Shown one piece after another: positions 12,980 to 48,444 of a stretch of 51,973 nucleotides of DNA. Each line of letters begins with the position of its first letter. The first letter of the stretch is position 1. A program made the translations under genes and the position numbers. The notes beneath the pieces were generated by a model. It saw only the letters and a program-made list of their open reading frames with translations. It had not been told where the DNA came from and did no database searches. Origin of the DNA: Patescibacteria group bacterium. GTDB taxonomy: Bacteria > Patescibacteriota > Saccharimonadia > Saccharimonadales > Saccharimonadaceae. Location: contig SCSZ01000021.1 of assembly GCA_004322265.1 (NCBI GenBank), forward strand, positions 1-51,973. The letters run 5' to 3'.

Positions 12980-13058
12980 AATACGCTTGTGCTTGTTGGT
13001 GCCAAGACCGAATTTTGCTATACTAATAGGAACACACTTTTGGGGTGTTCAATATTAT

Positions 13059-14300
13059 ATGAAGAGTCTTATCCGTAGATCCGCCACACCATTTGGAGCG
13101 ATTATCGCTGCTTTTCTTTTGCTGGTTGTTATAGCGGTTATTGTTGTTAACCGGGCTGGCGCTACAGACGGACAAAGTCAGAGTGGTCGCCTCATCACAA
13201 TTCATGATCGTGGAACTGAGAAGGTGATTATGAGTAATGCTGCGACAGTTGGCGATGCACTAAAAGAGGCTGACGTCCAAATTGACTCATCCGATGCAGT
13301 TGAGCCAGCGACCACCGAAAAGTTGGTTGCGAGCGAGTACAACATCAATATTTACAGGGCTCGACCAGTTATCGTTGTCGATGGAGCAACTAAAGAGAAA
13401 ATCATTACGCCGTATCAAACAGGTGATCAGATTGCTAAAGGCGCTGGTATAACACTGTTCCCGGAGGATAAAACAACGCTTGCGCCGAGTGATGATATTA
13501 CTGCAGATGGCGCAGGATTGGTACTAACTATTGATCGTGCAACTCCATTCACCTTTACGCTCTATGGCACAACCACCGAGGCTCGAACTCAGGCTAGTAC
13601 AGTTGGGGCAATGCTGAAAGAAAAAGGCATTGTACTATCGAGCGACGATCACGTAACACCAGACCAATCAACACCAATTTCAAATGGTCTAGCTGTACGA
13701 GTCTGGCGTGAAGGCAAGCAGACAATTACCGTCGATGAACCGATCGCCTTTACGACTCAAAAAGTGCAAGACGGTGATTATAATGTTGGCTATAGCGCAG
13801 TCCAGACTCCAGGCGTCAATGGTTCGCAGAGTGTAACGTACCAAGTAACAATCCAGGACGGTAAGGAGGTTGGCCGAACGGCGATTGCAAGTATCGTAAC
13901 ACTTCAACCAATTCAGCAAGTAGAAATTGTGGGTGTTAAAGTTGCCCTTGCTCGAAGCTACTCTGCTGATCGTGTTGCGGTGATGACGCAGGCTGGGATT
14001 GCTGATAGCGACCAAGGATACGCTGCCTATATTGTCGATCACGAAGATGCCACCTGGTGTCCAACTCGTTGGCAAGGTCAATCAGGCTGCCCAACATCGT
14101 ACATAGCTCTTTATAGCGAGGGCGCCAACATTGGCTATGGTCTGTGTCAGGCGACGCCAGGCAACAAGATGGCAATCGCAGGTAGTGACTGGCGAACTAA
14201 CCCTGTTACCCAGATGAAATGGTGTACCAGTTACGCGCTGTCTCGTTATGGTAGTTGGCTTGCAGCCTATACCTTTAAGGTGCAAAAAGGCTGGTGGTAA
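13059..14300 (+). CDS. Secreted DUF348/G5 domain protein with C-terminal lytic (Rpf/lysozyme-like) domain
   Basis: Signal anchor; repeated ITIHDRGTEKVIMSNAATVGDALKEADV / TFTLYGTTTEARTQASTVGAMLKEKGI (DUF348); G5-like SVTYQVTIQDGKEV; C-terminus YGLCQATPGNKMAIAGSDWRTNPVTQMKWCTSYALSRYGS. ORF track start at 12987 overlaps the downstream leader; ATG at 13059 preferred. Confidence 0.85.
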   Translation: MKSLIRRSATPFGAIIAAFLLLVVIAVIVVNRAGATDGQSQSGRLITIHDRGTEKVIMSNAATVGDALKEADVQIDSSDAVEPATTEKLVASEYNINIYRARPVIVVDGATKEKIITPYQTGDQIAKGAGITLFPEDKTTLAPSDDITADGAGLVLTIDRATPFTFTLYGTTTEARTQASTVGAMLKEKGIVLSSDDHVTPDQSTPISNGLAVRVWREGKQTITVDEPIAFTTQKVQDGDYNVGYSAVQTPGVNGSQSVTYQVTIQDGKEVGRTAIASIVTLQPIQQVEIVGVKVALARSYSADRVAVMTQAGIADSDQGYAAYIVDHEDATWCPTRWQGQSGCPTSYIALYSEGANIGYGLCQATPGNKMAIAGSDWRTNPVTQMKWCTSYALSRYGSWLAAYTFKVQKGWW

Positions 14301-15097: not shown

Positions 15098-16483
15098 ATG
15101 AATGCGTATCTTAGTCGCCGCTCTAATCGTGGTTTTACAATCATAGAACTGCTGATAGTTATGATTATAATCGCTATATTAGCAGCGATCATACTTATTG
15201 CGTATAACGGTGTAACGAGTTCCGCACGTGATAAAAGTGTATTGTCGGATTTGGATGGACTTGATGGGATAGAGACGGACTACGGAATCAAGAATAATGT
15301 AGCTGGTCTAGCGTGGTACTCGGGTCCGTCTGGAACAAATGGAGCCCCAGATGCAACGCTGAGCTTTACACCTAGTAGCGGAAATATTATAGACGTTGTT
15401 GTTAACTCAACTGACTACTGTATTCGTGGTTATAACCCTAACTCTGCTACGTACAAAACTCTTTCGACAGCAGCAAAAAAGGAATCAACCTCTGGGGTGT
15501 GTAATACAATTGCAGCATCAGCCGCGGCCATTGCCGATAGTCCAATAGTGAATACTTTTACTACTTTTACTCTTACTGCTCAAACATCCGCTGGCTCTCA
15601 AGAGTGGACGGGTGGTGTTGCTTCTTCATCAAACGGCTTAAAATTGGTTGCAGGTGACGACTGTGGAAAAGTTGTGACATCTACAAATTCTGGAAGTACG
15701 TGGGTAACTCAGATTGCAGAATGTCCGACAGGCACTGCTAACTGGAAAGGATTTACTTCATCATCGGATGGGACAAAGTTAGTTGGGGTAAGTGGTAATA
15801 GCGGCGGGTATATTTACACCTCTACCGATTCTGGCGTAACCTGGACCCAGCGAGCAAGTACGTCGAACGGTTGGGCATATGTCGCCGGTTCATCGGATGG
15901 GACAAAGTTAGTGGCTGTATCGAGACTGAGTCCCGGGTATGTATATACGTCCACAGATTCCGGTGTAACCTGGACCCAGCGGACATCGATTAATAGCATT
16001 ATGCGAGTCGCTTCATCATCAGATGGGACAAGGTTAGTCCTTACTACCTATGGTGGATATATCTATACGTCCACAGATTCCGGCGTAACCTGGACCCAAC
16101 AAACTGGGTCTGGAAGTCGTAACTGGGGAGGAGTCGCCTCATCATCTGACGGTACAAAGTTGGTTGCCGGGGTTTATGGCGACTATATTTACACCTCAAC
16201 CGACTCTGGCGTAACCTGGACCCAGCAAACTGGGTCAGGGATTCATGGATGGGCTACCATTGCTTCATCTACTGACGGAACCAAACTTTTCGCAGGAGAT
16301 GACGGCTACAGTGGTCATTATAGCAGCAACTATATTTACACCTCAACCGACTCTGGCGTAACGTGGACGCAACAAACATCAGCCGGTAGTCATTATTGGT
16401 GGAACATTGCTTCGTCGTCCGATGGTAGTCGAACGCTTTTTTCGCCAGAAGTTGGCTATCTCTACGTAGGTGTATATCAGTAA
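15098..16483 (+). CDS. Type IV pilin-like protein fused to Asp-box/BNR repeats
   Basis: Class III/prepilin signal RRSNRGFTIIELLIVMIIIAILAAI; head domain with DYCIRGY...TSGVC; five TSTDSGVTWTQ repeats plus one degenerate TSTNSGSTW. Confidence 0.88.
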   Translation: MNAYLSRRSNRGFTIIELLIVMIIIAILAAIILIAYNGVTSSARDKSVLSDLDGLDGIETDYGIKNNVAGLAWYSGPSGTNGAPDATLSFTPSSGNIIDVVVNSTDYCIRGYNPNSATYKTLSTAAKKESTSGVCNTIAASAAAIADSPIVNTFTTFTLTAQTSAGSQEWTGGVASSSNGLKLVAGDDCGKVVTSTNSGSTWVTQIAECPTGTANWKGFTSSSDGTKLVGVSGNSGGYIYTSTDSGVTWTQRASTSNGWAYVAGSSDGTKLVAVSRLSPGYVYTSTDSGVTWTQRTSINSIMRVASSSDGTRLVLTTYGGYIYTSTDSGVTWTQQTGSGSRNWGGVASSSDGTKLVAGVYGDYIYTSTDSGVTWTQQTGSGIHGWATIASSTDGTKLFAGDDGYSGHYSSNYIYTSTDSGVTWTQQTSAGSHYWWNIASSSDGSRTLFSPEVGYLYVGVYQ

Positions 16484-29588: not shown

Positions 29589-30767
29589 ATTCGTAATCAG
29601 ATTCAAAGAAGTCTGACTTCTGAATCAACTGTTGCCTTGCGACAGCAATTATTGGCCCACCGTCGAAAAAGGGCGAGGGGAGTACCAAAGGCCTCAACGG
29701 TCGCTATTTACGCGAGTATTTTTGCGGTTATTGTTGCTGTCGTTGCCGTCGGATATCACGCACCTCAAGAAACTTCAGGGGTTGCCAACGCTAGCCCTGC
29801 CACAACTGACACCCAAACACAGTCTGCGGCTATTGACCAGGTAGTCGCGACAAACGTTGCGGCGAACCTTGCTGAAACGACAAATCTATCCGTAGCGCCT
29901 AATGTCATTGAGTCAGCTGTATCAGCACAAACTCAAAGTGATTTCCTTCAAAGCGATACAACAGTCATTACTAAGCCTCAAATCCTCCAGCCAGGTGCTG
30001 AAAATCGTTCAATTACCAGTTACACCGTCAAGGCTGGCGATACAGCTGACAGCGTTGCTGCCCAATATGGTCTTAGTGTAAATACAATTGAATGGGCTAA
30101 TAACTTATCATCTAGTGCGCTAAAACCAGGCACAGTTCTGACAGTACTACCGACTGATGGTGTGCTGTACACGGTTAAGTCAGGTGATACCTTACAGTCA
30201 ATTAGTGATAAATATAGTGTTGATCAGACACGTGTTATCCTCTATAACGACCTTGCCGATGCAAATGCTGTTACGGCTGGGCTCAAGTTGATTCTTCCAG
30301 GTGCGAACCTCCCTACGAATGAACGTCCTGGCTATGTGGCACCATTGGCTGCTACGACAGCCTTCTTTACAGGATACAGCTCTGGCTTTGACGGCAACAC
30401 GTGGCACATCAAAAACGGTACGCCAAACAACGGTAACTATGCCGCGGGTAACTGTACGGCATATGCCTATGATCGTCGTATGGAACTTGGTTTGCCTGTT
30501 GGTAAGAACTGGGGTAACGCTGGTAGCTGGGCATACAATGCGGCAAATGGTATTGGTGTTGCTCAGAAGCTACGCGTCGACCACACGCCATCGATCGGTG
30601 CAGTTATGCAGGATTCTGGACACGTTGCGATCGTCGAAAACATCTTACCAAATGGTGATGTACAAGTTAGTGAAATGAATGCATATGTCTCAGGTGGTGG
30701 ATGGAATATCGTCTCAGGACGCAACGTTCCAGCGGCGTATGTCGGTCAATACCTATATATTCACTAG
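29589..30767 (+). CDS. Cell wall hydrolase with two LysM domains and C-terminal CHAP domain
   Basis: SYTVKAGDTADSVAAQYGLSVNTIEWANNL, LYTVKSGDTLQSISDKYSVDQTRVILYNDL, CHAP GNCTAYAYDRRMELGLPVGKNWGNAGSWAYNA and GHVAIVENILPNGDVQVSEMN. ORF track starts at TTG 29637; the frame is open upstream and an AGGAG lies 7 nt before ATT 29589. Confidence 0.85.
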   Translation: MRNQIQRSLTSESTVALRQQLLAHRRKRARGVPKASTVAIYASIFAVIVAVVAVGYHAPQETSGVANASPATTDTQTQSAAIDQVVATNVAANLAETTNLSVAPNVIESAVSAQTQSDFLQSDTTVITKPQILQPGAENRSITSYTVKAGDTADSVAAQYGLSVNTIEWANNLSSSALKPGTVLTVLPTDGVLYTVKSGDTLQSISDKYSVDQTRVILYNDLADANAVTAGLKLILPGANLPTNERPGYVAPLAATTAFFTGYSSGFDGNTWHIKNGTPNNGNYAAGNCTAYAYDRRMELGLPVGKNWGNAGSWAYNAANGIGVAQKLRVDHTPSIGAVMQDSGHVAIVENILPNGDVQVSEMNAYVSGGGWNIVSGRNVPAAYVGQYLYIH

Positions 30768-41763: not shown

Positions 41764-43320
41764 GTGAATACCAAACTCGAAGCCAAACTAAAAACACTGC
41801 CTAGGTCTCCTGGTGTCTACTTTCATAAGGACAAAACAGGCGAGGTTATTTATGTTGGCAAGGCAGCGGTCCTGAAAAACCGAGTCAAACAATATTTTCA
41901 AAGTACGCGTGATATGGATATCAAAACACGAGCGCTTGTTGCTGAGATTGATGATACCGATTGGGTTGAGACCGAGAGTGAGATTGATGCATTATTTCTC
42001 GAGAGCGAAATGGTCAAGCGCTACATGCCGCGCTTCAATATTCTACTTCGCGACGATAAATCACAGCTATTTGTTCGTATTGATATGAAAAGTGAGTGGC
42101 CACATGTGGCCTTTACGCGTAACCCCGCAGACGATGGAGCTGATTACTACGGGCCATATTATAATGGCTACGCAGTCAAAAAAGCGCTTCGTTATCTTCG
42201 TAAAATTTTTCCGTATTATACCAAGCCAGTTAAAGCGTCCGAAAGAGTCGATCTTGATGTTCATATCGGACTTAGTCCGCGGCCAGGTACATCGAGTGAA
42301 GAGTATAAAACGACATTACGAAAACTGGTTCGTTACATGGAGGGTGGACGAAAAGCACTCGCAAAAGAATTAGAAAAAGAAATGCATTTGGCAGCAAAGC
42401 TTCATGATTTTGAGAACGCCGCTAGCTTACGCAATAAGATTCGCGATCTGCGTGAACTACAAAGTCGCATTATGTTTGGCGACAGGGAATTCATGGACAT
42501 CAGTAAAGATAAAGCATTAACCGCGCTAGTTGAATTATTTCAACTCACCAAAATTCCTGTCCGAATTGAGGGCTATGATATTAGTCATATGAGCGGGACA
42601 AATGTTGTCGCGAGTATGGTCGTATTCACCAATGGTGTTAGCGATCGTGCCAACTACCGTAAATTCAAGACCAAGATTGAACAGAACGATGATTATTACA
42701 ATATCTATGAGACATTATCCAGGCGGACCAGTGAAAAAAATATGAAGTCATGGGGTAAACCAGACCTCATCCTCATTGACGGTGGCAAGGGCCAGCTCGA
42801 CGCAGCACTCAAGGCGCTCGAAGAAAGAGGTCTCCTGATCCCGACAATCAGTATTGCCAAGCGTGAGGAAGAAATAGTCGTTCACGCGACACGTTCAAAT
42901 ATAAATACCGAAAATTTGGTAAGTATGATCAAAACACCGAACAACAATGTTGCTGTGTCGCGTGAGGGTGAGTACTACATTGTGAATCTCCATCCTGGAC
43001 AAATTAATGCGTCGTCGCATTCGGGCAATCTTCGTGGCTCGAACACTTTTTCGACGTATTCTGATGTTACAAAATTATTTCAACGTATCCGGGATGAATC
43101 CCATCGTTTTGCGATCAGCTATCACACAGTATTAAAACGCGCCAAACAAACAGCGAGCATGCTCGACGAAGTGCCTGGCATTGGTCCCGTAACTCGTCGG
43201 ACACTTATCCGAAAGTTCGGCAGTCTGCGCGGTGTTCAGGCGGCAACAAAAGAACAACTTGTTGATGCAATTGGTTTATCTAAGGCAACTCTTTTGATCC
43301 CATATTTGCAAGCGCCATAA
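41764..43320 (+). CDS. uvrC: UvrABC system protein C
   Basis: GIY-YIG: LPRSPGVYFHKDKTGEVIYVGKAAVLKNRVKQYF; UVR motif; DLILIDGGKGQLDAAL; HhH VPGIGPVTRRTLIRKFGS. Confidence 0.94.
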   Translation: MNTKLEAKLKTLPRSPGVYFHKDKTGEVIYVGKAAVLKNRVKQYFQSTRDMDIKTRALVAEIDDTDWVETESEIDALFLESEMVKRYMPRFNILLRDDKSQLFVRIDMKSEWPHVAFTRNPADDGADYYGPYYNGYAVKKALRYLRKIFPYYTKPVKASERVDLDVHIGLSPRPGTSSEEYKTTLRKLVRYMEGGRKALAKELEKEMHLAAKLHDFENAASLRNKIRDLRELQSRIMFGDREFMDISKDKALTALVELFQLTKIPVRIEGYDISHMSGTNVVASMVVFTNGVSDRANYRKFKTKIEQNDDYYNIYETLSRRTSEKNMKSWGKPDLILIDGGKGQLDAALKALEERGLLIPTISIAKREEEIVVHATRSNINTENLVSMIKTPNNNVAVSREGEYYIVNLHPGQINASSHSGNLRGSNTFSTYSDVTKLFQRIRDESHRFAISYHTVLKRAKQTASMLDEVPGIGPVTRRTLIRKFGSLRGVQAATKEQLVDAIGLSKATLLIPYLQAP

Positions 43321-43355: not shown

Positions 43356-45842
43356 ATGCGTTTACGTGGGCAAAGTAGTGGCGATAAGTTAGGCTTTACG
43401 ATCATTGAGCTTGTTGTTGTCGTTGCGATTATTGCAATTTTAGCCACTATTTCAATTTTGGGGTATGGAGCGTGGAGAACAACTACTCTTGCGACACAGG
43501 TAAAGAGTGATTTATCAAGTGTGGTGTCTGCCATGGAAAACTACCGCACGTTTAATAACGGCTATCCTGCGCTGACCGGTACCATTGTGTCGGGCTGTTC
43601 TGGCACAGCACCCGCAACATCCATACAGTCAGTTCTATCAACGATTACTCCTAGTAAGAACGACTGCCTAACACTGTCGTCGGATTCAACCACAACATCC
43701 TATTGTGTCGATGGCGTGAGTACTGATAATCCTACAGCAACCTACTACGTTGCATCGGAGACCAAGGACCAAGGTGCGCTATCGGGTACTTGTGCTACTC
43801 GACCAGGCCAAACGCTGCCGGGTGTTCCAACTGGTCTTGCAACAACCACTGTTGCAAGCACGACTGTCGGCTTGACGTGGTCGGCAGGCTCTGGAGGGAC
43901 TCCTTCGAGTTACACCGCACAGTGTGCGAGTGATAATGCATTTATTCTAAATTTTGGTCAAGCGACCGTCAGCTCAACAACGGCTACTGTAACAGGTTTG
44001 GCCGCATCATCTACCCATTACTGTCGAGTAAAGGCGACAAATGGCGCTGGTGATAGTGCGTGGTCAACAGTAATCTCGACGAATACAAATGCCTACCAAC
44101 CACCATCAGGGTTTGCATTTAACGGTACGACCATCTCAAGTATTACATTGGGCTGGACTGCGAATATTGACGCAAACACCTATACACTGCAGTGTGCTAC
44201 AGACATAGGCTTTAGTTCTGGGGTAGTATCAGCCTCAGTGCCAGGTGCCACAGTTACATGGCAATTTAATAGCTTACCACCAAACACAACCTACTATTGT
44301 CGCATTAATACGGTTAATCCAATTGGTACAAGTGCATGGTCATCAACCATTAACTCAGCGACACTTAATTATTATGGTTCACTTGCGGTCGGCACGTCGA
44401 TTGAAGGCTACTGGACAAGTGCTCCGACTGGATACTTACTCGAGGATGGTTCGGCAGTTTCGCGTACGACATACTCATCCTTATTTGCCGTCATAGGTAC
44501 GACATATGGCGCGGGTGATGGATCGACCACATTCAATGTGCCAGATTCAAGAGGTAAAACATATGTCAACAAACTAACGAGTGATACGTATTTTGGAACA
44601 CTTGGTCAATCGGTTGGCTCTAAAACAGTTACGTTGCTTCTGAGCCAAATCCCACTTCATACTCATACGCAGTATGTAGGAAATGTCGATGACAAGAATT
44701 TCACAGGATATTTGATCGCAGGTCAGTATCCACCAGGCGACGGCCCAGGCCTCTACAATCCGGGCACAGTAACAGGTGCGACAGGAGGAGGTGGTGCTCA
44801 CAATAATATACAGCCATCAATCGTCAAAAAGTACGCAATCAAATATGCTCAAATTGACGCAGCCGCCTCAACGCTACCGGCTGGCAGCTCAAGCCATGGC
44901 TATTGGACATCCGCGCCAACTGGATACTTACTAGAGGATGGCTCAGCTGTCTCACGAACAACCTACGCAACATTATTCAGCGCTATAGGAACCACCTACG
45001 GTGCGGGGGATGGTTCCACGACTTTTAACCTCCCTGACTCACGATCTCGCGCGAGTGTTAACCTGAGCTCGACAGATGCTGAGTTTAACACCATGGGCGA
45101 AAAGTACGGTGAAGAAAACCATACATTATCAATTAATGAGTTGCCTTCTCATAATCACCCTGTATTTATCGGGACGACTGATGACAAAAACTGGACAGGA
45201 TATACGACTGGTGCCAATCAATATTCACCTGCAGACTCGGGAGGGGCACCACAAAATACAGGAGACGTGACAGGTAACACAGGTAGTGGTGGCTCATCGT
45301 CCTTTAGCGTTGTACAGCCATCAATTGTTCAAAACTCTGCGATTAAATACACAGCCGCGACAACGGGCAGTAGCGTTGCTGTTAATGTCGGCACGTCTCT
45401 GCCAGGCTATTGGGCATCAGTACCTAGTGGGTATCTCGCTGAGGATGGTTCAGCGGTTTCACGCTCCACGTATGCGTCACTTTTTGCGATTATTGGGACG
45501 ACCTATGGTGCAGGTGATGGCTCAACAACGTTTAACCTTCCAGATTCAAGGGGCTGTGTAGGTGTCAACTTGAACCCATCAGATGCAGAGTTTAATACCA
45601 TGGGTGAAAAATACGGAGAAAAAGCCCATACTTTGACAATTGCCGAAATGCCATCTCATACTCACACAATGAGTGTTGGAACAGTCGATGATCAAAACTT
45701 TACGAGTGGTGCTGGGCAGTATGCGCCAGCTGATGGGGGCGGTGCATATAATACCGGAATTCTTACAGGCAACACGGGTGGTGGTCAAGCATTTAACATC
45801 ATTCAGAACTCAATTGTAAAATTATTTGTCATTAAGTATTAA
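43356..45842 (+). CDS. Type IV pilin-like protein with two FN3 domains and three tandem phage tail-collar-like domains
   Basis: Prepilin signal GDKLGFTIIELVVVVAIIAILATISILGYGAW; FN3 repeats; three copies of GYWxSxPxGYLxEDGSAVSRxTYxxLFxxIGTTYGAGDGSTTFNxPDSR...HxH. Confidence 0.88.
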   Translation: MRLRGQSSGDKLGFTIIELVVVVAIIAILATISILGYGAWRTTTLATQVKSDLSSVVSAMENYRTFNNGYPALTGTIVSGCSGTAPATSIQSVLSTITPSKNDCLTLSSDSTTTSYCVDGVSTDNPTATYYVASETKDQGALSGTCATRPGQTLPGVPTGLATTTVASTTVGLTWSAGSGGTPSSYTAQCASDNAFILNFGQATVSSTTATVTGLAASSTHYCRVKATNGAGDSAWSTVISTNTNAYQPPSGFAFNGTTISSITLGWTANIDANTYTLQCATDIGFSSGVVSASVPGATVTWQFNSLPPNTTYYCRINTVNPIGTSAWSSTINSATLNYYGSLAVGTSIEGYWTSAPTGYLLEDGSAVSRTTYSSLFAVIGTTYGAGDGSTTFNVPDSRGKTYVNKLTSDTYFGTLGQSVGSKTVTLLLSQIPLHTHTQYVGNVDDKNFTGYLIAGQYPPGDGPGLYNPGTVTGATGGGGAHNNIQPSIVKKYAIKYAQIDAAASTLPAGSSSHGYWTSAPTGYLLEDGSAVSRTTYATLFSAIGTTYGAGDGSTTFNLPDSRSRASVNLSSTDAEFNTMGEKYGEENHTLSINELPSHNHPVFIGTTDDKNWTGYTTGANQYSPADSGGAPQNTGDVTGNTGSGGSSSFSVVQPSIVQNSAIKYTAATTGSSVAVNVGTSLPGYWASVPSGYLAEDGSAVSRSTYASLFAIIGTTYGAGDGSTTFNLPDSRGCVGVNLNPSDAEFNTMGEKYGEKAHTLTIAEMPSHTHTMSVGTVDDQNFTSGAGQYAPADGGGAYNTGILTGNTGGGQAFNIIQNSIVKLFVIKY
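44376..45840 (+). repeat. Three tandem tail-collar-like coding repeats, about 160 codons each
   Basis: Repeat starts near 44376, 44873 and 45385; each carries an HxH motif (PLHTHT, PSHNHP, PSHTHT). Confidence 0.85.
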
Positions 45843-45855
45843 GCAGAAAGCTATT

Positions 45856-46815
45856 ATGGAAAACGATCCAATACCTGTACCGAAATCACCAAGTTTTAAC
45901 AAGCGAAAAGTATTGTTGATTATTGTTAGCGTTGTTATGGTACTGATTGTTAGTGTTATCGCCGTATTCATTCTTCGATGGCTAACACTGTCAAGTGAAG
46001 TTAAAGCAGTACTCGAATCAGTACCATCAGCAATGACAACGGCAAGTGCTGAAGGTGGTAATGGCTATCCTATGGCGATACCACTGTCTGTCAAAACTGA
46101 TACGCACGTTACTTTAAGTGGTGGCGGTACCTTCGACGGAACAATATACTGTGTTACTGGTGCTTACAATACCGACCAGTCGATCATATATCACGTCAGT
46201 TCATCAAATGCGCAAGTTGCGTCCGGTGCGTGTGCACCTGTTGTGAAAGTTTCGAAACCAACATCCGTCCTGTCGCCAATCCAAGGTATTGTGAGCCCTA
46301 GCCAAGTCGGGGTTACATGGTTACCAGTAAAAGATGCAGCTAGCTATAGCGTTCAGTGTGCAACAGATCAGAGCTTCACCCAAAATGTTACGAAATCAAC
46401 CGCTGCTGCCAATCAAAACCAATGTATTAACTTACATCCACTAACAACATACTACGCACGTGTGCGAGCAAATAATAGCGCAGGAGCAGGACCATGGTCT
46501 CAACCAATCGTACTGAAGACTACCGTTTTATCAGTTGCGCCAGACGGACTAACCATTACCGTAAAATCGGCAACAGACGCTACATACTCCTGGTTGCCAG
46601 TAAGTGGTGCGACAAGTTATGTTTTGCAAGGATCAACGGATACAAGCTATGAAAATGATGTGATCACAAAAACAGTAACAACTACGTCCGGGACATTAAC
46701 GGGGCTAAAGCCTCATACTGTGTACTACTTCCATGTTAAAGCGGTTACAGCGCAATTTGACGCAGCGCACGCTGCTTACTCTGGCGGTGTTGGCATACTG
46801 ACACTCGCTCGTTAA
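45856..46815 (+). CDS. Membrane-anchored pilin-head-like protein with FN3 domains, no prepilin motif
   Basis: One TM then SSEVKAVLESVPSAM...GNGYPM...IYCVTGAY...ASGAC, aligning with the pilin head of the upstream gene; two FN3-like domains. Confidence 0.75.
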   Translation: MENDPIPVPKSPSFNKRKVLLIIVSVVMVLIVSVIAVFILRWLTLSSEVKAVLESVPSAMTTASAEGGNGYPMAIPLSVKTDTHVTLSGGGTFDGTIYCVTGAYNTDQSIIYHVSSSNAQVASGACAPVVKVSKPTSVLSPIQGIVSPSQVGVTWLPVKDAASYSVQCATDQSFTQNVTKSTAAANQNQCINLHPLTTYYARVRANNSAGAGPWSQPIVLKTTVLSVAPDGLTITVKSATDATYSWLPVSGATSYVLQGSTDTSYENDVITKTVTTTSGTLTGLKPHTVYYFHVKAVTAQFDAAHAAYSGGVGILTLAR

Positions 46816-46835: not shown

Positions 46836-48035
46836 ATGAACAGTAATTTTTTTCAAGCTAACCGTGCACGCTTAGCAAACAATATAAATGGACCAATTGT
46901 ATTGTCGGCTAACCACCAAATGCAGCGGAGTAATGATGCAGCATTCGGATTTGAACAAGAGGCAAACTTTTGGTATCTAACTGGTATTACTGCGCCAGAT
47001 TGGTGGGTGATTATTGACGGGACTAAAAGCATACTTGTAGTTCCCGAAATTGATGATATTCATCAAGTGTTTAATGGAAGCCTGAGCGTTAGCAACGCAA
47101 TGAAAATCAGTGGGATTGACGAAGTAATATCGCGCCGTGAAGCGCAGGATATACTTCAGCATATCGCTCGAACGAAAAACGTTGTTTACGCCCTTGGTTC
47201 GGACCCTCACGAAAAGTTTTATGACTTTGTCGTTAATCCTGCTAGAAAGGACATGTATAAATACCTAAAGAAAATATTCGCGGACGTTCGTGATTGTCGG
47301 ATGGACTTAGCGAAGCTTCGTGCAACTAAGCAACCCATTGAAATAGATGCAATAAAGAAAGCAATCAAACTCACGAACGAAGCATTTCGTGAAGTTCAAC
47401 CAAAGCTTGCAAACCTAAAATACGAATATCAAGTTGAAGCAGAATTTAGCTATAGGTTTAGAAATGCTGGCTCGTCAGGTCATGCGTACGATCCTATTGT
47501 GGCAAGTGGTGCTAATGCAGTTACGCTACACTATAACTCAAACAGCGAACGACTCAAAAATAACTCACTGCTGCTACTTGATATCGGGGCAAGAGTCGAT
47601 GGATATGCTGCTGACATCACTCGTACCTATGCAATCGGTGCGCCGACTAAACGTCAACTTGATGTACATCGAGCTGTCGAAAAAGCCCAGCAAGCTATTA
47701 TCGCACTGCTACAACCAGGACTGTCTGTCAAAGATTATCAAGCGTTCGTCGATACAATTATGCAAGATGCACTCATCGGCTTAGGTCTTATCAAATCACG
47801 CGACGATCAAGCAAACTATCGTAAGTATTTTCCTCACGCAATTAGCCATGGTCTCGGGATTGACGTGCATGACAGTCTTGGCGGTCCTGTAGAGTTTTTG
47901 CCTGGTATGATGCTGACAGTCGAACCCGGCATCTACATTCCCGAAGAAGGAATTGGCGTCCGGATTGAGGATGATATCTTGATAACAGAAACCGGCCACC
48001 AAAATCTATCAGCATCGTTACCCACCTCTTTGTGA
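46836..48035 (+). CDS. pepP: Xaa-Pro aminopeptidase (M24B)
   Basis: FEQEANFWYLTGI, LLLDIGARVDGYAADITRTYAIG, HAISHGLGIDVHD, MMLTVEPGIYIPEEGIGVRIEDDILIT. Confidence 0.93.
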   Translation: MNSNFFQANRARLANNINGPIVLSANHQMQRSNDAAFGFEQEANFWYLTGITAPDWWVIIDGTKSILVVPEIDDIHQVFNGSLSVSNAMKISGIDEVISRREAQDILQHIARTKNVVYALGSDPHEKFYDFVVNPARKDMYKYLKKIFADVRDCRMDLAKLRATKQPIEIDAIKKAIKLTNEAFREVQPKLANLKYEYQVEAEFSYRFRNAGSSGHAYDPIVASGANAVTLHYNSNSERLKNNSLLLLDIGARVDGYAADITRTYAIGAPTKRQLDVHRAVEKAQQAIIALLQPGLSVKDYQAFVDTIMQDALIGLGLIKSRDDQANYRKYFPHAISHGLGIDVHDSLGGPVEFLPGMMLTVEPGIYIPEEGIGVRIEDDILITETGHQNLSASLPTSL

Positions 48036-48051
48036 TATACTAAAAATAGTA

Positions 48052-48444
48052 ATGAGACGACAATTTCTCGTATTTTTAGTTCGATGGGTACTGAACTCTT
48101 TCGGGTTGTGGATTGCTGTTCGTGTCTTTGGAACAGGATACAATACGAACGTAACTGCTGGCGTATGGGGATTTTTATTTGCTGGTCTCATTTTCTCGAT
48201 CATCAATAGTATTTTGAAGCCAATTACAGTTATTTTCGCGTTGCCGGCGATTTTATTGACGCTCGGTTTATTTATGTTAGTCGTTAATGGTCTGATGGTT
48301 TATATCTCACTCAAACTTGCACCTGGGCTCTCTATGTCGTTTATCAACTCAATTCTGACTGGAATGTTACTGAGTCTGATAAACTATATAGTAAGTGCAG
48401 CATTAGAATTACGACAACCTACGGAGGCAGGGGACAAATCATGA
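48052..48444 (+). CDS. Phage holin family IV-type (PF04020-like) membrane protein
   Basis: Four hydrophobic segments; FAGLIFSIINSILKPITVIFALPAILLTLGLFMLVVNGLMVYI. Confidence 0.85.
   Translation: MRRQFLVFLVRWVLNSFGLWIAVRVFGTGYNTNVTAGVWGFLFAGLIFSIINSILKPITVIFALPAILLTLGLFMLVVNGLMVYISLKLAPGLSMSFINSILTGMLLSLINYIVSAALELRQPTEAGDKS

Follow-up and report, generated by a model that had tools for sequence, protein, structure and literature searches.

The gene at 43356-45842 on the + strand of the window (the whole 51,973-nt stretch of DNA analysed here) encodes an 828-aa modular type IV pilin that ends in three tandem copies of a phage tail collar domain. It is probably a tip pilin whose phage receptor-binding domains form a pseudo-trimer within a single chain, and it probably acts as a host adhesin, one of several exchangeable tips that occupy the same chromosomal slot in related bacteria. 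The assembly to which the window belongs, as contig 37, spans 886 kb and is 99.7% complete. The genome is Saccharibacteria-like, and its relatives include Saccharibacteria MAGs.

The open reading frame starts with the ATG at 43356 and its stop codon ends at 45842. Residues 1-13 (43356-43394) form the prepilin leader peptide; its KLG, ending with the glycine at position -1, precedes FTIIEL. The processing site GFTIIEL includes G13, F14 and E18, and both the N_methyl profile PF07963 (E 4.9e-5) and TIGR02532 scored above their cut-offs. The hydrophobic α1 helix and the pilin head follow at residues 14-152 (43395-43811), a region matched by phmmer to PilA/geopilin chains. Two FN3 domains were recognized by PF00041 (two stretches, E 3.4e-18), one at residues 158-242 (43827-44081) and one, with approximate limits, at about residues 251-336 (44106-44363). 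The rest of the chain is occupied by collar repeat 1 (residues 351-497, 44406-44846), repeat 2 (residues 515-665, 44898-45350) and repeat 3 (residues 684-828, 45405-45839). The Collar profile PF07484 matched in three stretches (E 9.7e-55; 182.8 bits, with the cut-off at 24), as did Gp10_C PF21939 (E 3.5e-20), and the PHROGs matches were to tail proteins, again in triplicate. A whole-genome profile search with PF07484 returned no match in the 886-kb genome beyond these three. This pattern of matches is well beyond chance. The preliminary description had read a prepilin signal, two FN3-like domains and three tail-collar-like repeats from the letters, and the profiles agreed with it on each. It had also given the repeats as about 160 aa long; the three tandem copies held, while the length did not, each repeat being about 145-151 aa with linkers of 17-18 aa in addition. 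With a prepilin signal and non-pilus domains (two fn3, three Collar) placed C-terminal to the pilin module, the protein has the layout of a modular type IV pilin.

The kinship of the repeats to the T4 gp12/gp10-type collar, proposed in the same description, was supported by sequence profile and fold alike. A collar profile built from 86 collars, seven of them CPR repeats and the rest viral, matched the structures 8kec, 6ov6, 9qgo and 9nxk, which are phage tail-tip entries deposited with several chains, as well as T4 gp12 (1ocy, E 6e-5; 1pdi). An AlphaFold model of repeat 3 had a pLDDT of 79.5 overall and of 55-58 in the loop, which is low confidence. Foldseek with this model placed a cyanophage tail fibre, T4 gp12, gp10 and the gp37 tip among its structural neighbours (8kec, E 4e-7; 1ocy, E 9e-4; gp10 2fkk weaker), and the top match among viral models was a minor tail protein of Microbacterium phage Arete. 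The HxH motif, which had been pointed out as the metal ligands of T4 gp12, was present in all three repeats, as HTH at residues 435-437 (44658-44666), HNH at residues 599-601 (45150-45158) and HTH at residues 768-770 (45657-45665), and was nearly invariant in the 86 homologues. In the profile alignment, the conserved pSHTH of the collars superposed on the HKH of gp12, the motif of repeat 1 falling in the column of this HKH in 1ocy. Fibres of this kind bind a single metal in an octahedral site through six histidines, supplied by three copies of HxH, and in the gp12 crystal structure the HxH occurs together with zinc (PMC6116203).

The closest full-length phage relatives were Microbacterium and Arthrobacter phages. 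The higher scores of these matches are suggestive of an actinophage affinity. Borrowing from actinophages, judged by the number of matching records, was considered and rejected, as a control query with a Pseudomonas phage gave the same record set and the count mirrors the collection. In a plasmid search the collar matches were partial only, and most were labelled tail fibre proteins.

Collars were found in 16 of the 199 genomes of the family, spread over three genera, and in 8 of the 381 genomes of a phylum-wide sample. Pilin-collar fusions recurred in two genera, and the architecture exists in other CPR genomes. Exactly three collars were present in 13 of 16 intact collar pilin genes, a count that is non-independent because the proteins share descent. 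Twelve of these 13 were on the window-type carrier and one (G196, L073) was on a PilX-like pilin with a glycine-rich domain. The exceptions were G194b with two collars and the single-collar genes G180 and G135, the last on another pilin type. G194b adjoins a triple gene, and in the repeat tree its repeats paired with repeats 2 and 3 of that gene; to judge from its sequence, it is probably a derivative of this neighbour. The tree, in which repeat positions cluster inside each lineage, is compatible with a single triplication and with several. Among 105 viral ORFs from IMG/VR loci, 101 had one collar, four had two and none had three. A lone single-collar fragment was seen at L054:7342-7803 between two pepP pieces, possibly an insertion or a misassembly.

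A domain unrelated to the collar, which we call GYRP after its motif LPxGYRP, was also found in threes. Three copies end a pilin gene with FN3 (L062:125-1777, - strand) located beside a collar gene, and further pilin genes with the triple lie in L158-L197. The domain matched phage tail families, one of them a receptor-binding tail protein. The one protein searched against Pfam, this neighbour of the L062 collar gene, gave no match for the domain, and a PDB search gave no significant match (best 6r5w, E 0.14). GYRP matches were present in 42 of the 199 family genomes and in 12 genera. From these, 38 ORFs were recovered; all 37 complete ones had exactly three tandem copies, and the remaining one was truncated by a contig end. 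These triples are mostly kin by descent, and so they represent three copies stably kept rather than 37 independent events. In phage records the domain occurred in 95 places in 95 records, once per record. Other modules on these pilins were not in threes: RCC1 was present in seven copies, InlB-like repeats in two to five, LamG in one, and FN3 in variable number. The genome of the window also encodes, on contig 31 (L075:15932-17893), a 654-aa minor pilin with FN3 and FG-GAP-type repeats; pilins of other genera with a similar signal sequence bear the GYRP triple instead.

The relation among the three repeats of a protein was examined in four segments per repeat: the core, the middle, the loop that follows HxH, and the C-terminus. 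The loops of the window protein are at residues 438-478 (44667-44789), 602-646 (45159-45293) and 771-809 (45666-45782). Loop identity was 0.57 within a protein and 0.31 between proteins, whereas in the core, middle and C-terminus the identity between proteins at the same position equalled that within a protein. The within-protein loop similarity exceeded 5000 of 5000 shuffles, whether all proteins were taken or just those of the window's genus. Among five close g8 proteins with a common loop class, the two loop values did not contrast. The loops also changed together. Compared with its nearest relative G036 (UvrC 92% identical), the window protein had cores 86-90% identical and all three loops replaced (26-35%). 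Compared with the more distant G080 (UvrC 71%), all three loops were kept, with 58-70% identity.

The likeness of loops within a protein might be a mere trace of gene conversion between repeats, with no three-fold selection behind it. The loops do appear homogenised inside proteins, and conversion does happen: in U6025b, repeats 2 and 3 have cores that are near-identical in codons (0.92). However, the same-codon fractions between loops were mostly 0.3-0.6, and the cores, which are more conserved, group by position and not by protein. In the cores of the window gene, the same codon was used at 0.30-0.33 of identical residues, against a chance value of 0.326. Synonymous sites in this gene are therefore saturated, and recent gene conversion does not explain the matched loops. 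We consider conversion as the whole cause improbable. Diversification of the loops by a DGR was rejected as well: no TR/VR-like repeat was shared with the window, and the sole reverse transcriptase found was of the RT_UG13b defence type. That enzyme is encoded on contig 23 of the same genome (L076:1469-2860, UG13b class, E 1.6e-131), about 4 kb from a large pilin gene.

The copy number, the loop covariation and the presence of a second domain in threes would favour an intrachain pseudo-trimer, as far as sequence can tell. Another reading is that the three collars fold and act independently as beads on a string, which would bind a repetitive glycan by avidity and form no trimer within the chain. 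The 17-18-residue linkers are in keeping with this, as is the occurrence of one- and two-collar genes. An attempt to model the triple gave no packing either. In a MAFFT trial the single viral collars all aligned to one and the same repeat, which made it impossible to align the triple deeply, and one repeat was modelled instead; AlphaFold on the triple collar with six orthologues (a six-row alignment) gave a pLDDT of 29.9 and no packing among the repeats, and this model was set aside. Against independent beads, the relatives with solved structures are T4 gp12 and phage tail tips made of several chains, and the HxH site in such fibres requires three copies (PMC6116203). Moreover, repeats that serve avidity would be expected to differ in number, like the FN3 and InlB-type modules here, but two unrelated phage tip domains are kept at three. 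Independent folding is thus an unlikely account, and we prefer the pseudo-trimer.

The chromosomal position of the gene was conserved. Upstream lies uvrC (41764-43320, +), and downstream lie a pepP-like gene for an Xaa-Pro aminopeptidase (46836-48035, +; the best NCBIfam model, PRK10879, scored under its curated cut-off) and a gene for a small membrane protein conserved 3' of the slot (48052-48444, +), all three placed by synteny. The order uvrC, pilin, and then pepP, small membrane protein and substrate-binding protein was the same in collar genomes of both genera. It was also the same in collar-less relatives, in which the pilin had a different C-terminus: an RCC1 propeller (L121), LamG (L126), a glycine-rich region (L122), InlB-like repeats (L122, L129) or a stretch that matched no assigned family. 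The collar pilin gene sits outside any pilus operon. Collar domains are typical of phage tails, and the gene could on that ground be taken for a recent phage or prophage insertion, or for a chimera, rather than a cellular pilin. However, in two genera it is flanked by uvrC and pepP, with no phage structural genes as neighbours, and these flanks recur in independent genomes. The repeats are saturated at synonymous sites, and the prepilin signal and pilin head run on into the collars in several assemblies. An insertion or chimera is scarcely credible on this evidence.

Between the collar pilin and the pepP-like gene we noted a gene at 45856-46815 (+) for a 319-aa protein with an N-terminal membrane anchor, a pilin-like head and two FN3 domains (fn3 matched twice). 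It had 27% identity to the collar pilin (E 7e-20), and the prepilin cleavage motif was absent from 11 of 11 copies. Of 13 collar slots, 11 had this gene 3' of the pilin, and all 15 other slots lacked it; its copies (the window, L058, L059, L061, L062, L064-L066, L068, L069 and L071) lie only beside collar pilins. Our guess is that this partner might be a folding or anchoring helper of the collar head.

Type IV pilus machinery, the absence of which would have spoken against the earlier proposal, was found in the form of two systems. One locus (L074) encodes PilB, PilT, PilC, a prepilin peptidase (peptidase A24) and several pilins, and a second (L077) encodes another PilB/PilC/PilM set. Genome-wide, there were four T2SSE ATPases and about 13 prepilin motifs. 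The window-type pilin head was present in 28 of 28 genomes of the genus. These 28 genomes, of 0.6-1.1 Mb, had 4 to 37 head matches each, a large expansion of pilins. Elsewhere in the window, 15098-16483 encodes a second prepilin of 461 aa with weak matches to BNR/sortilin-type propellers. The window also encodes a protein with an aggregation-promoting-factor C-terminal domain (12987-14300; NF052397, E 6e-18) and one with two LysM domains and CHAP (29637-30767), likely a cell-wall hydrolase.

Taken together, these features suggest the following mechanism. The gene product would be a modular minor pilin whose collar head, a homotrimer in its phage tail version, has three subunits fused into one chain. 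If a filament has one tip pilin, three chains for a homotrimeric domain would not be available, and the three-copy fusion might be the solution, a single pilin subunit then displaying the complete three-fold tip. A metal site of six histidines could be built on the axis by the three HxH motifs, with the matched loops of the three repeats as a binding face. The head probably recognises the surface of the host bacterium, as one of several tips exchanged between species at the same slot.

The known hosts of Saccharibacteria are Actinobacteria. Actinobacteria are likewise named as the hosts in PMC10633639. In TM7x, host binding drops by about half when the RCC1-propeller pilin PilX2 or its pilus is lost (PMC12206443), and in the relative L121 the pilin at this slot has an RCC1 tip; host binding is therefore the best guess for the collar pilin. 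The swappable slot and this precedent make host recognition a well-grounded expectation. The protein might instead be a surface adhesin or a structural pilin for a non-host target, such as biofilm matrix, an abiotic surface, DNA uptake or a phage decoy. Saccharibacteria have many pilins, as the 4-37 head matches per genome in the genus imply, and not all of them necessarily bind hosts. However, close relatives differ in the tip at one fixed slot, and the related propeller-tipped pilin has a host-binding phenotype (PMC12206443); both fit host recognition better, and a non-host target seems rather unlikely to us. The collar pilin is thus a strong, testable candidate for a determinant of host choice in these bacteria.

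The chances are even that a general trick of Saccharibacteria is at work here. Phage receptor-binding domains that are homotrimeric would have been domesticated by fusing exactly three copies to a minor pilin, owing to the one-copy pilus tip. At least two unrelated domains (collar and GYRP) would be involved, the uvrC-side slot would be a swappable host-range cassette, and the collar tips would have a membrane-anchored, pilin-like partner of their own. It has long been asked how episymbiotic Patescibacteria locate and select their hosts, and the present candidate offers a binding face, a metal site and a three-fold symmetry that are open to prediction and mutation, as well as a slot that can be correlated with host range. 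If the pseudo-trimer is true, it would be a clean natural case in which a homotrimeric viral domain has become a trimer within one chain, for the reason that a pilus tip has room for one copy. Phage tips on pili, if confirmed, would imply that phages and predatory or parasitic bacteria share a traffic in host-recognition parts.

Among known systems, PilX2 of Nanosynbacter lyticus TM7x is likewise a minor pilin from Saccharibacteria and has a large head at its C-terminus, a seven-bladed RCC1 propeller. The heads differ, and so do the signals: the window gene has a prepilin signal, and none was predicted for PilX2 in its description (PMC12206443). PilB of Streptococcus sanguinis also joins a pilin module to a grafted non-pilus domain that the filament displays and that was modelled at the tip (Raynaud et al. 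2021, PMC8179133). The main text of that study counts more than 1,200 modular type IV pilins in 264 architectures from InterPro, and it mentions neither a collar domain nor a three-copy fusion of a trimeric domain among the bimodular pilins. The PilV adhesins of IncI plasmids are minor pilins in which an exchanged C-terminal recognition domain sets the recipient range; there the shufflon exchanges the domain by DNA inversion within a cell, whereas the exchange at the collar slot was seen between species, and no inversion cassette came to notice (PMC9045228). Modular pilins (PMC8179133) and tip swapping that alters partner range (PMC9045228) are thus already known. We found no report of collar pilins in Saccharibacteria in the open-access literature.

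The tip pilin 4EPS of Bacteroides ovatus, as cited in PMC10743442, carries a C-type-lectin domain like those of phage receptor-binding proteins, which is a different domain from the collar and is present in a single copy. The pilus of 4EPS is not known to be a type IV pilus. CofB of the type IVb pili of ETEC is, as cited in PMC8179133, a large minor pilin with a predicted tip position and a three-fold assembly. It uses three separate chains and serves as an adaptor for a secreted protein, whereas the collar pilin fuses three copies. The T4 short tail fibre gp12 and gp10 share their domain family with the collar pilin, by profile and by fold, and the HxH lies at the aligned position. The phage chain, however, has one copy and forms a homotrimer, whereas the collar pilin has three copies in one cellular chain.
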